Positions 45,186-51,586 of a DNA stretch of 64,000 nt are shown in pieces (within the stretch, counting starts at the first letter, position 1; each line of letters starts with the position of its first letter). Where the stretch lies: assembly GCA_021798955.1 (NCBI GenBank), contig JAJZBK010000003.1, forward strand, positions 1 to 64,000. Reading direction: 5' to 3'. The stretch is from Actinomycetes bacterium (GTDB lineage: Bacteria; Actinomycetota; Acidimicrobiia; Acidimicrobiales; RAAP-2). The position numbers and the translations under genes are program-made. The notes under the pieces were generated by a model. That model ran no database searches, was not told the origin of the DNA, and worked only from the letters and a program-made list of their open reading frames with translations.

Positions 45186-46481
45186 TCAGGACGCCGACGC
45201 GGCGGTAGCCGGGAGCGGCGACGAGACCGGTGGCACCCTACCCCCGTGGGCCGCCAGGACCGCCAGAGCCTGGTCGAGGCTGGTCACGGCGTAGACGTGC
45301 AGGGAACGGGTCGCCTTCGACAGGGCAACCTTGTACTCCTGCTTCGGCACCAAGAAGATCGTCGCTCCGGCGCGCTCGACGGCGATGGTCTTCTGGGCCA
45401 CACCGCCGACGTCGCCGACGGCTCCGTCCGGCGACATCGTCCCGGTGGCGGCGACCGTCTTCCCGCCGGTGAGGTCGCCTCCACCCAGCGCGTCGATCAC
45501 CCCCAGGGTCATCGCCAGGCCGGCCGACGGCCCGCCGATGTTGGCCACGTCGATGGACACGTTGATCGGCAGCGTGAAGTCGACCTGGTCCTCGACTTGG
45601 ACACCGAGCTCCTCGCGATGGTGGACCCCGAAGCCCAAGTTGACCAGCGTGTCGTGCAGCGTGACGGCGACCGGTCGCGCCGGACCGGTACCACCCCTCT
45701 GGACGGAGAACACGACCCGTTGGCCCGAGTGGTACCGGCTAAGCACGTCGACGAGGGCAGTGGCCGACGTCGTCGGCACACCGTCGACAGCAGTGATGAC
45801 GTCGCCCACGTGGAGGACGCCCCAGGCTGGCGTACCGGGGTAGGTGGCGAACACGACGGCACCGGCCGGTCGGGCCGGCACCGGGTACCCGAGACGGCGC
45901 AGGGCGGCGACCTCGGCCGCCTGCTCGGCTTGGGACATCTCGAGCACGCCCTGAGCTCCGAATTCGGAGGCCGGGGTACCGCCGGTCACCGTGTCGACCT
46001 GGTCGAGCGACGTGTTGCCCTGGAGCTTGAAGTAGAGGTACGAGAGCGCTGTGACCCGGGCGATCTCGACGTCGGTGAGGAGCACGGGGTGGGCGACTGG
46101 ATGGGCCCTGTCGGCCGGAACGGAGATGAACTGCTGGACGGACTGAGCGGTCCCCGGTTGGAGCGCGTAGTAGTCGAGGTTCACCCGCGACGCCACGGCG
46201 ACAGCGATAGCGAGGACGACGAAGGCGACCCAGCCCCAGCGGTGTCGTCGCCGACCTCGCTGGCGGCCACCGTCACGCCTGTCCGGGCCAGCACCGGGTT
46301 CCCTCACCGCGTCGGGCCCGAGCAGGTACGCGCTCGCTGGACGGTCCGCGCCGGCGTCAGCCGGGCTGCCCGCCAAAGGGAGCGTCCCTCCGTCGCCCTG
46401 CGGGGTAGCCCCGTCCGGCCCGGCCGCCTGCGGGCCCTGGCCCGGAGGGCTCGTCGTACCGTCGTCGTCGCCAGCAGTCAT
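45186..46481 (-). CDS. YlbL-type membrane PDZ-Lon protease
   Basis: A 431-residue protein of the YlbL/SdrC group: a long polar, proline/glycine-rich cytoplasmic N terminus of about 80 residues, one membrane helix (83-99), a PDZ domain (about 208-275) and a C-terminal Lon-type serine protease domain. The catalytic dyad is visible: Ser319 in NIGGPSAGLAMTLG and Lys364 in GGVAQKTIAVERAGA. It should act outside the membrane as a quality-control or regulated-intramembrane-type protease. The ATG is only nine bases from the divergent HEAT gene start. Confidence 0.93.
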   Translation of the reverse strand: MTAGDDDGTTSPPGQGPQAAGPDGATPQGDGGTLPLAGSPADAGADRPASAYLLGPDAVREPGAGPDRRDGGRQRGRRRHRWGWVAFVVLAIAVAVASRVNLDYYALQPGTAQSVQQFISVPADRAHPVAHPVLLTDVEIARVTALSYLYFKLQGNTSLDQVDTVTGGTPASEFGAQGVLEMSQAEQAAEVAALRRLGYPVPARPAGAVVFATYPGTPAWGVLHVGDVITAVDGVPTTSATALVDVLSRYHSGQRVVFSVQRGGTGPARPVAVTLHDTLVNLGFGVHHREELGVQVEDQVDFTLPINVSIDVANIGGPSAGLAMTLGVIDALGGGDLTGGKTVAATGTMSPDGAVGDVGGVAQKTIAVERAGATIFLVPKQEYKVALSKATRSLHVYAVTSLDQALAVLAAHGGRVPPVSSPLPATAASAS

Positions 46482-46490: not shown

Positions 46491-47219
46491 GTGCGTGCTC
46501 CTCGTCCGTCAGGTGCCACCGGCCCGTCCCGCCCCGAGGACGGACCGCCGGTCAGCCAGCCTGGCACGGAACGACCGCCTGGCGGGGTCACCGGCACCAC
46601 CGACGCGGTTCGACCACGGCTCGGTGACCCCGAGCTTCGAGCGCGTCGGCTGGCCGTGGTGCTCGCCGGCCACCTCGGCGACGAACCAGCGGCCCGGGCG
46701 GGACTCGGCGAGGAGTCCGCGGTGGTCCGCGCCAGCGCACTGGGAGCACTGGAGCGACTGGGGGCCCTCGACGACACCACGCTCGGACGCTCCTGCGGCG
46801 ACCCAGACCCGGTGGTACGGCGCCGGGCGTGCGAGCTGGCCGCTACCCGTCCGACGGTCGACCTCCGAGGAGCCCTCGACGACACCGACCCGCTCGTGGC
46901 AGAGATGGCGGCCTGGGCGCTCGGCGAGCAAGGCGCCACGACCGCCATCGACGCCTTGGCACAGATGGCCACCGGGCACGACGACCCCCTCTGTCGCGAG
47001 GCGGCGGTCGCCGCCCTCGGAGCGATCGGGGACCGTCGTGGGCTCCCCGTCGTGCTGGCCGCGCTCGACGACCGACCAGCCATCCGGCGAAGGGCGGCGG
47101 TCGCCCTCGCCGCGTTCGACCACCCGTCCGCCGACGACGGGCTCCGGCGCTGCCTGACCGACCGGGACTGGCAAGTGCGCCAGGTCGCCGAAGACCTCCT
47201 CGGCGTCGACCCCGCCTAG
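46491..47219 (+). CDS. HEAT-repeat protein
   Basis: A 242-residue helical-repeat protein of the PBS-lyase/HEAT class. After a 40-residue disordered-looking N terminus, repeats of 30-35 residues with the pattern ...DPLVAEMAAWALGEQG..., DPLCREAAVAALGAIGD and RPAIRRRAAVALAAFDHP run to the end. Such proteins are usually protein-interaction scaffolds; no enzymatic motif is present. GTG 46491 fits the leaderless promoter. It starts nine bases from the divergent PDZ-Lon protease gene, so the two may be related in function. Convergent with mreB. Confidence 0.8.
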   Translation: MRAPRPSGATGPSRPEDGPPVSQPGTERPPGGVTGTTDAVRPRLGDPELRARRLAVVLAGHLGDEPAARAGLGEESAVVRASALGALERLGALDDTTLGRSCGDPDPVVRRRACELAATRPTVDLRGALDDTDPLVAEMAAWALGEQGATTAIDALAQMATGHDDPLCREAAVAALGAIGDRRGLPVVLAALDDRPAIRRRAAVALAAFDHPSADDGLRRCLTDRDWQVRQVAEDLLGVDPA

Positions 47220-47278: not shown

Positions 47279-48283
47279 TCAGGCGTCCGAAGCGGCGAAG
47301 GCGGGGCGGTGACGGTCGAGGCTCGGAAGGCACAGTCCGGCCCCGTTCACGACGCACTCGAGCGGCGTCGGGACCAAATGGACCGCCACCTCGGTCTCGT
47401 CAGCCAGCCGGTTGGCCAGTCCCCGCAACATGGCGCCGCCCCCGACCAGATGGATCCCCTGGGTGATGATGTCGTGGGCGAGCTCAGGTGGGGCGCTGGC
47501 CAGGCAGTCGACGGTGGTGGCGACGATGAGGTCGACCTGCTCTTTGATGGCCGAGCGCACCTCGGCAGGAGCGAGGACGACCGTCTTGGGCATGCCGGTG
47601 GCCACCAGCCGTCCGCGCACCTCGGCCTTGACCTCGTTGGCGTAGGGCAGCGCCGACCCGATGGCCAGCTTGAGCTCCTCGCCCGTCCGCTCGCCGATGG
47701 CAATGCCGTGCTCGGCGCGCACGTAGGCCTGGATGGCCGCGTCCATGTCGAACCCACCACAACGCACTGCACGAGAGGCAACCAGTCCGCCCAACGAGAT
47801 GACGGCTGTCTCGGTGGTGCCACCGCCCACGTCGACGACCATGCTTCCCACCGGTTCTTGCACGGGCAGGCCGGCGCCGATGGCCGCGGCCATGGGCTGC
47901 TCGATGAGGTGCGCCGAGGCGGCACCGGCCCGCCGTGCCGCGTCGCGAACGGCGCGGCGTTCGACCGAGGTGATCGCCGAGGGCACGCAGATGAGGACAC
48001 GGGTCCGTCCCAGCCGGGAGACACCAGCCCTCCGCAGGAGGAGGCGGATCATCCGTTCGGTGATGTCGAAGTCGGTGATGGCGCCCTCACGGAGTGGACG
48101 CACGGCCACGATGTACCCGGGTGTGCGCCCGATCATCTGCCACGCCTCGTCACCGACGGCCAAGACCTCCCGCGTGCGCGTGTTGAGCGCGATGACGGTC
48201 GGCTGGTTCAGCACGATCCCTCGACCCCGGGCATAGACGAGCGTGTTGGCTGTCCCGAGATCGATGGCAAGGTCCCGAGCCAC
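47279..48283 (-). CDS. mreB: MreB/Mbl-type actin-like shape protein
   Basis: A 334-residue bacterial actin homologue that forms membrane-associated filaments guiding cell-wall synthesis. Phosphate-1 is DLAIDLGTANTLVY, the connector is in VCVPSAITSVERRAV (reading ICVPSAIT), phosphate-2 is VVDVGGGTTETAVISLGG and the adenosine motif is LVGGGAMLRGLANRL. The length is normal. mreC, mreD, pbp2 and rodA are not adjacent, unlike in many rods. GTG 48283 is preceded by a TACGAT box six bases away. Divergent from the HtrA-like gene. Confidence 0.93.
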   Translation of the reverse strand: MARDLAIDLGTANTLVYARGRGIVLNQPTVIALNTRTREVLAVGDEAWQMIGRTPGYIVAVRPLREGAITDFDITERMIRLLLRRAGVSRLGRTRVLICVPSAITSVERRAVRDAARRAGAASAHLIEQPMAAAIGAGLPVQEPVGSMVVDVGGGTTETAVISLGGLVASRAVRCGGFDMDAAIQAYVRAEHGIAIGERTGEELKLAIGSALPYANEVKAEVRGRLVATGMPKTVVLAPAEVRSAIKEQVDLIVATTVDCLASAPPELAHDIITQGIHLVGGGAMLRGLANRLADETEVAVHLVPTPLECVVNGAGLCLPSLDRHRPAFAASDA

Positions 48284-48378: not shown

Positions 48379-49857
48379 GTGGACGGTCACGAGGGAGCGC
48401 GCCGTGGGCACGACCCCGGCGACGAGGGGAACGACGGGCCCGTCGGTGACGGTGGCTCGCGAGGAGACGACTCGATCGACGACCTCGACGACCACCTCGA
48501 CCTCGACGACCACCTCGACCTCGACGACCACCTCGACCTCGACGACCACCTCGACCTCGACGACCACCTCGACCTCGACGACCACCTCGACCTCGGTGGC
48601 TTTCGGGGCTGGGTCGCCCCCGAGGACCGCTTGTGGCGTCACCCCTCTGAGCTCGGTGCGGCCTCCTGGGCAGGTCGTAGCGGGAACCTCGGAAGAGGTC
48701 GGCTCCGGCCGGCCGGCCGTGGCGGCGTCCAGCGCCGGCCCGCCCCCCCGTGGATCGTCGGGACGGTTGCCGTCGCTGCCGGCGTGCTGCTCGCCACCGG
48801 CTTGGTGCTCGCCTCCTCGGGCGCCGACCCGGGCCTCGTCGCTCGGCGGGTGGTCGCCACCGCGTCGACCTCGACACCTTCGCCGGTGACGGCCACCACC
48901 ATGGCGGGCACCCCCGGTCCAGGCGCCGCGGTGGTGGGCAGGGTCGAGCGCCAGGTGCGTCCGTCCCTCGTCGCACTGGTGGTCCATCGGGCCACCGGGG
49001 CGGTCCTTGGAACGGGGGTGGTGGTCGAGCCGGGCGGGATCATCGCCACCACCGCCAGCCTGCTCCGCGGGGCGGTGTCCATCGTCGCCGAGGAAGCGGG
49101 AGGGACACGCGAGCCTGCCCGGCTGGTAGGAGTCGACCGGACATCGGGGGTCGCCGTGGTACAGGTTGCCGACCAGCTGCCAGCCGTCACCGTCGACTCC
49201 ACCGATCCCAGCCCCGGTTCGGTGGACCTGGCGATCGCCTTTCCTGCCTCGAGGGGAACCATGCCTCAGCCTGCTGTGTACGCGGGAGCCGTCGTCGCAT
49301 CTGGCGTTCCCGCCGGCGTCGATGGCCCGACCACCGAGTTCGCGTCGACCGTCGTCCGGGCACCGCTCTCCGGCTCCGAACAAGGCGGCGCGTTGGTAGA
49401 CGCCAGCGGTCGGCTCGTCGGCATCCTCGACGCCGTCAGCTCCACGCCGAACGGCTCCGTCGGCGTCTTCCTCCCCTCCACACTGGTCTCGGGCGTCGCC
49501 GAGCAGCTGGTCACCTCGGGAACCGTCGGGCGCGGTCGGCTGGGTGTCGACGGCAGCGACCTCGCGCCACCGGCCGGCAGTCCGACCAGCGCACCGGTCG
49601 GCGTGCTCGTCGATGCAGTCGACCCGGGTGGTGCGGCCGCCCAGGCCGGGGTGCAGCAAGGCGACGTGATCGTCGCCGTCGACGGCAGCACCGTCCACTC
49701 GATGGCCGAGCTCCGGGCCTTGCTCTACCCCGATCCACCGGGCACGTCCCTCGAGGTCACGATCAAACGAGGCTCCTCCACGTTCGTGACCACGGCCGTG
49801 CTCGGAACCTCGACGGCGGCCGGTGCTCCGGCGCCGGTCTCCAGCCACGCGCCGTAG
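48379..49857 (+). CDS. Protease-dead HtrA-like membrane protein with PDZ domain
   Basis: A 492-residue single-helix membrane protein. The cytoplasmic N terminus has six LDDHLD repeats (36-71) and a WRHPSE motif (86-91), followed by a helix at 125-146, a trypsin-like domain (about 185-375) and a PDZ domain (about 390-475). By alignment to the HtrA pattern, the catalytic triad appears lost: the TNNHVV histidine site reads TTASLL (Ser227), the DLAVL aspartate site reads SGVAV (Gly257) and the GNSGGP serine site reads SEQGGA (Gln335). It may work as an extracellular binding or scaffold protein, perhaps with the PDZ-Lon protease or MreB. GTG 48379 is supported by a -10 box. Confidence 0.85.
   Translation: MDGHEGARRGHDPGDEGNDGPVGDGGSRGDDSIDDLDDHLDLDDHLDLDDHLDLDDHLDLDDHLDLDDHLDLGGFRGWVAPEDRLWRHPSELGAASWAGRSGNLGRGRLRPAGRGGVQRRPAPPWIVGTVAVAAGVLLATGLVLASSGADPGLVARRVVATASTSTPSPVTATTMAGTPGPGAAVVGRVERQVRPSLVALVVHRATGAVLGTGVVVEPGGIIATTASLLRGAVSIVAEEAGGTREPARLVGVDRTSGVAVVQVADQLPAVTVDSTDPSPGSVDLAIAFPASRGTMPQPAVYAGAVVASGVPAGVDGPTTEFASTVVRAPLSGSEQGGALVDASGRLVGILDAVSSTPNGSVGVFLPSTLVSGVAEQLVTSGTVGRGRLGVDGSDLAPPAGSPTSAPVGVLVDAVDPGGAAAQAGVQQGDVIVAVDGSTVHSMAELRALLYPDPPGTSLEVTIKRGSSTFVTTAVLGTSTAAGAPAPVSSHAP
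48484..48591. repeat. 18-bp tandem repeat, 6 copies, in the HtrA-like gene
   Basis: Six units of CTCGACGACCACCTCGAC with almost no divergence, encoding (LDDHLD)6. The unit is a multiple of three, so copy-number change keeps the frame. Confidence 0.97.
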
Positions 49858-49866: not shown

Positions 49867-51135
49867 ATGACACCTCCGCCCTCCGGTGAAGGGCAGAACC
49901 CGTTCGAACTGCTCTTCGGCGACCTGATGAAGCTCCTCGGGTCGCAGGGATCACATCAGTGGGAGACGACCCGGGCCTTCGCCGTCCAGGTCGCCACCGG
50001 TGGCGAGCCCGAGGGCAACGTCGATCCCGTCCAACGCATCCAGGTCGAAGAGCTGGCCCGCGTGGCCGAGCTGCACGTCAGCGAGGCGACGGGCATGCCG
50101 ATCGCTCCTGACGGGCGCCGTCTGTCCTGCGTCCCCGTCGGGCGGGCCGACTGGGCCCTGCGCGCCCTCGACGCGTGGCAGCCGGTCTTGACGGCGATGA
50201 CGCCCGCTGCCACAGCACCAGGCGCGATGCCCGACACGTCCGCCCTCGAGCCGTCCGGCGAGCCGGGCGACGCTCTCGTCAACCTGCTCGGCCAGTGGGC
50301 GGGGATGATGGGGCCGATGTTCTTCGGCCTCCAGGTCGGCTCGGTGGTCGGCCATCTCTCCCAGCGGGCACTGGGTCAGTACGTGTTGCCCGTCCCGTGG
50401 CCCGTCAACGACGAACTGCTCGTCGTGCCCGCCAACATCGCCTCGTTCGCCTCCGACTGGAGCCTGCCCGAGGAAGAAGCGCTCGTGTGGGTATGCGCGC
50501 GCGAGCTGGCGTCGCACTCGGTGCTGGCCCGTCCGTCCGTCCGGGCCCACCTCGATCGCCTCCTGAAGGCGTTCGCCGCGTCCGCCAGTACGGCGCAGCA
50601 GGGCCTCATGGACCGCCTGTCGTCGATGGGCGACGAGCTCGACCTGCCCGGTGTCGGCGGTGAACCAATGGACATCGCCGCCCTACAGGGGATGCTCGGC
50701 AACCCCGAAGCGCTGCTGGGCAGCCTCCTCACCCCAGACGTGCGGCGCACATCAGACCAGTTGACTGCCATCGCTATCGTGGTCGACGCCTACGCCGACC
50801 ACGTGGCCGACCTCGTGGGTCGCCACCTCGTCGGCGCTCATGCTGCCCTGGCCGAGGCCTGGTACCGACGGAGGATCGAACGAGGCAAGGGCGAGGAGGC
50901 AGCCGGCGCCCTCTTCGGCCTCGACCTCGACCAGGTGCAGGTGGACCGGGGACGGGCGTTCGTCGCCGGTGTCATCGAACGAGCCGGCGAGGAACAGCTC
51001 GGACGCCTGTGGACGTCAGAGCGCACCCTGCCCACTCCCGCCGAAGTCGACGCGCCGGGCCTCTGGCTGGAGCGCATCGACCTGCCAGAGCTCGATCCAC
51101 CGTCAGCCGCCAGTGGCGACGCCCCGGAGGCCTAA
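49867..51135 (+). CDS. TIGR03624/DUF2342-like protein with a degenerate zinc motif
   Basis: A 422-residue protein of the actinobacterial putative-hydrolase/zinc metalloprotease family (DUF2342). Conserved landmarks are an N-terminal NPFELLFGDLMKLL, the glycine/methionine-rich WAGMMGPMFFGLQVGSVVG, QYVLPVPWP and VVPANIASFASDW. At the position of the HExxHH zinc motif it reads RELASH (212-217): the first histidine is arginine and the second is serine. It is therefore probably inactive as a zinc peptidase, although a bound metal through other residues cannot be excluded. Seven bases after the HtrA-like gene, with its own leaderless promoter. Confidence 0.8.
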   Translation: MTPPPSGEGQNPFELLFGDLMKLLGSQGSHQWETTRAFAVQVATGGEPEGNVDPVQRIQVEELARVAELHVSEATGMPIAPDGRRLSCVPVGRADWALRALDAWQPVLTAMTPAATAPGAMPDTSALEPSGEPGDALVNLLGQWAGMMGPMFFGLQVGSVVGHLSQRALGQYVLPVPWPVNDELLVVPANIASFASDWSLPEEEALVWVCARELASHSVLARPSVRAHLDRLLKAFAASASTAQQGLMDRLSSMGDELDLPGVGGEPMDIAALQGMLGNPEALLGSLLTPDVRRTSDQLTAIAIVVDAYADHVADLVGRHLVGAHAALAEAWYRRRIERGKGEEAAGALFGLDLDQVQVDRGRAFVAGVIERAGEEQLGRLWTSERTLPTPAEVDAPGLWLERIDLPELDPPSAASGDAPEA

Positions 51136-51235: not shown

Positions 51236-51586
51236 TCAGGCCTCTGCCGTGTGGTCGCCGCCTCCGGCACCCTCGGCGCCTTCCGCGGCAGGGGATGAGT
51301 CGACCGGCTCGCCGAGGTCCCAGTCGAGCTCGATGTTCTCGCGCTCAGCGTCACGCACCACGCGTTCACGGTTGCGACGAAACTGCGGGTCGTGCGGCGG
51401 CAGGAGCACGAGGCGGGCGAGCGTACGCTGACGGAACTCCTCGATGAGCGCGGCGTCGCCATAGTCGGATTGGACGTCCCAGTGCGGAGCCACCGGGCCC
51501 AGGTACACCACGCGGACGTGGCCAACAGGAGGCTGGGGCTCCTCGGGCTCGTCGGTTGCGCTCGCTTCCTCGCCTACGGGGGTCAT
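51236..51586 (-). CDS. Hypothetical protein, 116 residues
   Basis: A small acidic unrecognised protein. The middle (VRVVYLGPVAPHWDVQSDYGD, then ALIEEFRQRTLARLVLLPPHDPQFRRNRERV) looks like a small folded domain; both ends are low in complexity and glutamate- and glycine-rich. GGAGGA lies eight bases before the ATG at 51586, and a TAGGCT box is about 30 bases further upstream. Convergent with the metalloprotease-like gene. No function assigned. Confidence 0.6.
   Translation of the reverse strand: MTPVGEEASATDEPEEPQPPVGHVRVVYLGPVAPHWDVQSDYGDAALIEEFRQRTLARLVLLPPHDPQFRRNRERVVRDAERENIELDWDLGEPVDSSPAAEGAEGAGGGDHTAEA

Follow-up and report, generated by a model that had tools for sequence, protein, structure and literature searches.

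An HtrA-derived pseudoprotease in the order Acidimicrobiales with a conserved cytoplasmic motif: a probable transmembrane adaptor

The closest described systems to the protein analyzed here are members and derivatives of the HtrA family. DegQ and DegP (HtrA, Do family; TIGR02037) share with it a trypsin-like barrel and PDZ, DegS combines an N-terminal membrane anchor with a protease domain and one PDZ, and the mycobacterial proteins Rv0983 (PepD) and Rv1223 are actinobacterial proteins with the HtrA fold. Bacterial HtrA pseudoproteases are a kind already known: passages of one study (PMC4794232) describe MamO and degenerate copies of MamE in magnetotactic bacteria as HtrA-derived pseudoproteases that evolved repeatedly and serve non-catalytic roles. 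MamO as portrayed there keeps the catalytic His and Asp, has T225 in place of Ser, binds metal at a di-histidine site and carries a transporter domain.

The gene studied here lies in a stretch of 64,000 nucleotides (the window) from contig JAJZBK010000003.1 of an Actinomycetes bacterium of the order Acidimicrobiales (GenBank assembly GCA_021798955.1), whose relevant features are collected in Table 1. The open reading frame at 48379-49857(+) is real and runs exactly between the ends originally predicted, with its GTG as the only usual start codon upstream of the motif described below. A wrong reading frame was ruled out by the in-frame Pfam matches to Trypsin_2 (residues 211-349; E 5.9e-14) and, C-terminal to it, PDZ_6 (E 2.7e-14), as well as by the end-to-end alignment of relatives and by the codons of the local repeat, all of which end in C. 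The protein consists, in order, of an acidic cytoplasmic tail, a WRHPSE motif, a basic stretch, one membrane helix (residues 130-144 in the AlphaFold2 model), a trypsin-like domain and one PDZ domain; we place the N-terminal tail on the cytoplasmic side because the basic stretch and single hydrophobic helix imply this orientation under the positive-inside rule. In a contig search the closest relatives were a single record from a congener (L034) and, in other groups, six distant loci resembling HtrA, and a plasmid search gave partial matches of less than 60% identity in 33 records, none of which covered 80% of the query.

Table 1 Features of the pseudoprotease locus, in window coordinates.
Feature	Position	Strand	Remarks
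PDZ-Lon (SepM/YlbL-like) protease	45186..46481	-	Syntenic in relatives
HEAT-repeat protein	46500..47219	+	Syntenic in relatives; start chosen by hand, not predicted
Second (orphan) MreB paralogue	47279..48283	-	Divergent from pseudoprotease gene
HtrA-like pseudoprotease gene	48379..49857	+	492 aa; GTG start
18-bp tandem repeat	48480..48595	+	6.4 copies, 100% identity; encodes (LDDHLD)6
PEDRLWRHPSE, codons P81-E91	48619..48651	+	Best-conserved stretch of the family
Membrane helix	48751..48813	+	About residues 125-145; limits judged by eye
Trypsin-like (pseudo)protease domain	48925..49533	+	About residues 183-385; Pfam, phmmer, AlphaFold2
S227, at catalytic His position	49057..49059	+	phmmer alignment to DegQ/DegP
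G257, at catalytic Asp position	49147..49149	+	phmmer alignment to DegQ/DegP
Q335, at catalytic Ser position	49381..49383	+	SEQGG vs GNSGG; phmmer alignment to DegQ/DegP
PDZ domain	49534..49803	+	About residues 386-475; Pfam, AlphaFold2
DUF2342 zincin-like protein	49867..51135	+	Pfam; co-directional with pseudoprotease gene
116-aa protein	51236..51586	-	Family without Pfam/NCBIfam match; syntenic in relatives

The original prediction held that the whole catalytic triad had been lost while the fold and PDZ domain were kept, and both parts stand. The three replacements (S227, G257 and Q335) were re-read directly from the DNA, and their assignment by phmmer is borne out by the orthologue survey below. 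An AlphaFold2 model of the protein, built with 80 sequences and having a pLDDT of about 90 or more across nearly all of residues 180-475, superposes on DegQ (3stj; Z 33.3, 285 residues, 2.6 Å) and on DegP (3otp; Z 33.3) at an identity of 27-29%. Unlike DegQ and DegP, the protein lacks His-Asp-Ser, reads SEQGG instead of GNSGG, and has a membrane anchor, a single PDZ domain and a cytoplasmic motif. DegS has the same overall architecture (Z up to 27.1), from which our protein departs by the absence of the triad and by its long cytoplasmic tail with the motif; Rv0983 and Rv1223 (Z 29.8 and 27.7 to solved structures) differ from it in that one of the structures listed for them, 2z9i, is of a form with proteolytic activity. 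Scores against the corresponding family models fall below the curated cut-offs, at 118.1 bits for TIGR02037 (cut-off 416.2), 96.2 bits for TIGR02038 (DegS; 422.95) and 27 bits for the MamO model NF040961 (800). Measured against what is portrayed of MamO in the passages cited above, all three triad residues are gone here instead of one, and Pfam finds the PDZ domain alone after the protease-like domain, with no C-terminal transporter domain; MamO is thus the nearest published case in those passages, differing in residues lost and in domain make-up. With the trypsin-like double barrel and C-terminal PDZ domain of HtrA/DegP present and the defining His-Asp-Ser triad absent, the protein is not an HtrA protease, and we class it as an HtrA-derived pseudoprotease.

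A residual enzymatic function through a relocated or unusual active site seems scarcely credible to us, although orthologues found by homology retain the fold and some elements of the substrate-binding frame (G336 and G220 each in 39/40, T224 in 38/40). In their extracytoplasmic part, not one Ser, His, Lys or Cys position is shared by 36 or more of these 40 sequences, and for that reason the family as aligned appears to be without a common replacement triad, which would have been the sign of an intact site elsewhere; the residues at the three catalytic columns, moreover, vary freely.

The homology search matched 60 of 61 relatives. From it we used 30 loci and a further 40 fetched regions, and from a search with the motif 30 loci and a further 80, in both cases among the matches listed; the counts exclude the duplicates L034, L059, L060, L092 and L081. 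Four of the 40 non-redundant, homology-found orthologues keep His-Asp-Ser (L017, L025, L031 and L064), and no orthologue with the same residues as the window's protein is known to be active. When 130 full-length orthologues were aligned (motif loci among the matches listed), 26 had His-Asp-Ser and 64 had none of the three. The addition of 25 orthologues from motif-variant and mreB-first loci brought the survey to 155 full-length, motif-bearing orthologues of the order, again with motif loci among the matches listed, of which 26 retain the triad and 73 retain none of it (His in 29, Asp in 70, Ser in 36). Since the 115 orthologues beyond the 40 were mostly fetched by motif, the constancy of the motif was judged on the 40. 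Unlinked HtrA homologues have His-Asp-Ser in all 33 counted, a set from which L039, which is HtrA-like, comes from Burkholderiales and reads Y/G/S at the catalytic columns, was left out beforehand, which L038, a PDZ-only match, never entered, and from which L023 was moved to the orthologues, having the motif on a contig that ends before mreB.

Where the catalytic His has been lost, its replacements vary (S, D, A, R, Q, T, P, G and others), a pattern that resembles relaxed constraint more than the emergence of a single new site. Mapped on an MreB tree of 122 loci, the triad requires at least 8 changes, against a mean of 22.4 in shuffles, and 11 when gains are disallowed; this is a quick tree, in which some MreB rows are very long-branched and the strongly supported branches alone force 2 changes. 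Because regain of all three residues is improbable, the active HtrA form is most likely ancestral. Judged by their residues, the 26 orthologues with a full triad look active, so that catalysis once mattered and may still do so in part of the order.

Erosion extends beyond the catalytic site. Among 19 short open reading frames with the motif, 4 are cut by the end of the sequence, 10 look like chance matches and 5 are complete truncated proteins beside mreB that have lost the PDZ domain, the protease domain or both and have kept the motif and helix. In addition to these two elements, L146 retains PDZ without a protease domain and L151 a weak trypsin match, while L152, L153 and L154 match no Pfam family; a further protein, L246, combines the motif with a weak match to trypsin and lacks PDZ. 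Because all five short proteins keep both elements after domain loss, the motif and helix appear to outlive the remaining domains. These five were found via the motif; the opposite event, in which the domains stay and the motif goes, is visible only in the two motif-independent sets (the homology search and 20 mreB-first loci), which contain variants of the motif and no clear case of this kind.

We then compared the gene with that of a congener (locus L005), to which the pseudoprotease is 78% identical. The values are dN 0.1415 and dS 0.638 for the whole gene over 412 codons (dN/dS 0.22), 0.101 and 0.596 for the protease-like domain (dN/dS 0.17), and 0.134 and 0.621 for PDZ; the corresponding pairs are 0.030/0.530 for the neighboring MreB and 0.054/0.553 for the zincin. 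Because dN/dS is low, the catalytically dead domain is kept by selection, more loosely than MreB or the zincin. These estimates bear on the idea that the gene is a decaying relic whose apparent conservation is merely slow loss. Catalytic columns near randomness, the loss of domains in several lineages and a dN/dS above that of MreB and the zincin are what such a relic would show, but the idea is strained by the selection estimate itself (0.22 overall, 0.17 in the protease domain) and runs against the open frame, the order-wide synteny and the near-invariant motif; we regard it as very unlikely.

As far as the alignments indicate, the most conserved part of the family is the cytoplasmic R-x-W-x-H-P-[SA]-E motif and not the protease fold. 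Residues R84, W86, H88, P89, S90 and E91 are invariant in all 40 homology-found orthologues and R87 is found in 39. The WRHPSE codons (48634-48651) are the sole match to their degenerate pattern in the 2.5-Mb genome, with a reversed control of 0, and a loose motif expression finds none in the unlinked HtrA homologues. Across the order, the WRHPSE pattern occurs in 193 of 298 genomes and a longer, looser pattern in 156 of 298 (reversed control in 13 rows, counted by reading). The strict long form was found in 8 of 296 genomes of a phylum sample, that is, in 8 of 22 from the same order and 0 of 274 outside it, so that within this sample no cytoplasmic W-x-H-P-[SA]-E was found beyond the order. 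At the same place in the same protein we also find WRHPAE, WMHPSE, WIHPSE, WLHPSE, WVHPSE and WMHPAE; in 20 mreB regions from genomes without exact WRHPSE, 6 have WRHPAE and 3 have WVHPSE or WIHPSE, and in the remainder the motif is absent or the sequence ends too soon. Our literature search found no mention of WRHPSE, and within the reach of our searches there is no description of a family that has decayed repeatedly across an order around a cytoplasmic motif that stays. Both the (LDDHLD)6 run and WRHPSE are present on the cytoplasmic side as predicted, but the equal weight first given to them does not hold: the repeat is absent from the congener, in which WRHPSE is present. The repeat was therefore rejected as the functional core, the congener having a different, GGDPY-like run at that place.

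These data directly support that the triad is lost and the fold retained, that the gene is under purifying selection, that the motif extends across the order, and that the catalytic site and, in some lineages, whole extracytoplasmic domains have eroded repeatedly with motif and helix kept. We think that the protein is probably a catalytically dead, membrane-anchored HtrA working as a transmembrane adaptor. Its extracytoplasmic PDZ and protease-like domains would bind peptides or proteins without cutting them, and R-x-W-x-H-P-[SA]-E would dock on a cytosolic partner, for which the divergent MreB paralogue would be the first candidate, followed by the zincin-like, HEAT-repeat and PDZ-Lon proteins. 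Of the earlier proposal of a pseudoprotease that might serve as a chaperone or scaffold, the first half is supported by the survey, the selection estimates and the fold, which agree on a gene kept after its triad was lost, whereas a non-catalytic scaffold role is a probable reading, and the best one, of them.

The mreB gene is indeed divergent from the pseudoprotease gene, as predicted, with 95 bp between them. It encodes the genome's second MreB, 54% identical to the copy beside mreC, and mreB lies divergently upstream in 126 of 130 full-length orthologues (motif loci among the matches listed), a linkage that favors a functional link or shared regulation. MreB is found at E<=1e-40 in 293 of 298 genomes, mostly in two copies; exact WRHPSE is weakly associated with a strong MreB match across the 298 (odds ratio 2.6, p 0.0004, ignoring phylogeny), and in family f32 a relaxed motif was read from our table in 3 of 4 genomes with two MreB copies and in 0 of 7 with one. 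Set against the divergent linkage, four f18 genomes (L228-L231) still encode the motif protein between HEAT and zincin, but their fetched loci show no MreB; one of the four, G224 (96% complete), lacks an MreB match at E<=1e-40 genome-wide. These loci rule out MreB as sole, obligate partner, and because of them we rank the adjacent MreB as a candidate and not as a conclusion, its partnership being possible but rather doubtful. We found no literature joining Acidimicrobiia and MreB. A replacement of RodZ by the motif protein was also discarded: the genome encodes an HTH_25 protein that includes a membrane segment, and the canonical system therefore needs no such substitute. In other families of the order, as at L064 (3352-3843), a gene that looks MoaE-like by eye lies between mreB and the motif gene. 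In several lineages (L115-L122 and L237-L245) the adjacent MreB has diverged strongly, with long branches and 30-50% identity, which gives the impression of fast evolution.

The surrounding genes form a conserved block of PDZ-Lon, HEAT repeats, mreB, divergently the HtrA-like gene, the zincin, the 116-aa protein, WhiB, FTCD, WhiB and VWA. Its composition lends some weight to a regulatory role, in which the pseudoprotease would use its PDZ or protease-like domain to pair with an active protease (PDZ-Lon or HtrA), presenting substrates to it or activating it. The PDZ-Lon gene accompanies the motif protein in the window, in relatives and in the mreB-less L228 and L229; the same genome has an intact-looking HtrA on contig C21 (HVI, DVAVL and GDSGG, read by eye); several relatives have a second, triad-intact HtrA in the same block; and MamO, according to passages of its description, promotes MamE-dependent proteolysis without a triad of its own (PMC4794232). 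Such pairing does not account for the persistence of the cytoplasmic motif after the PDZ and protease domains are lost, and we consider it a minority possibility. The second HtrA lies near the 116-aa gene in L060, L074, L050, L055, L056 and L057, a position at which the window has only about 300 bp; the 116-aa protein itself is strongly conserved across the order (about 57-87% identity in segments). For the PDZ-Lon protein a comparison is offered by B. subtilis YlbL, which we take to be a protease of the PDZ-Lon type. YlbL promotes recovery from a cell-division checkpoint, according to one report (PMC6051672), and it is a guess by analogy that the window's PDZ-Lon might act as YlbL does there.

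The zincin next to the pseudoprotease has RELAS (residues 212-216; window 50500-50514) at its HExxH site, where a solved relative, 3cmn, has HEMTH, and this difference makes both products of the gene pair look enzymatically dead. Of 54 neighbor zincins sampled, 8 have an intact HExxH, with none intact among those from f1, the window's family.

Returning to the adaptor, we entertain a broader scenario with some reserve: R-x-W-x-H-P-[SA]-E may mark an undescribed, order-confined class of transmembrane adaptors that arose from an active HtrA, lost catalysis on many occasions and here and there the entire protease and PDZ domains too, and would connect a ligand in the envelope with a cytoplasmic system, in many cases the adjacent orphan MreB, next to a zincin that would also be a pseudoenzyme. 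Within the order, a single gene at a constant location presents a natural series that begins with active HtrA, continues with dead HtrA and ends with motif and helix devoid of protease. The series makes the function of an HtrA after the loss of cutting testable and indicates that the part under selection is a small motif in the cytoplasm. Were the MreB paralogue the partner, a second actin-like system would have a new link to the envelope, in an actinobacterial lineage that has been little studied. In one genome (G133) the motif occurs in four copies (L233, L234, L235 and L236), of which one lies beside mreB and two are not full-length in frame.
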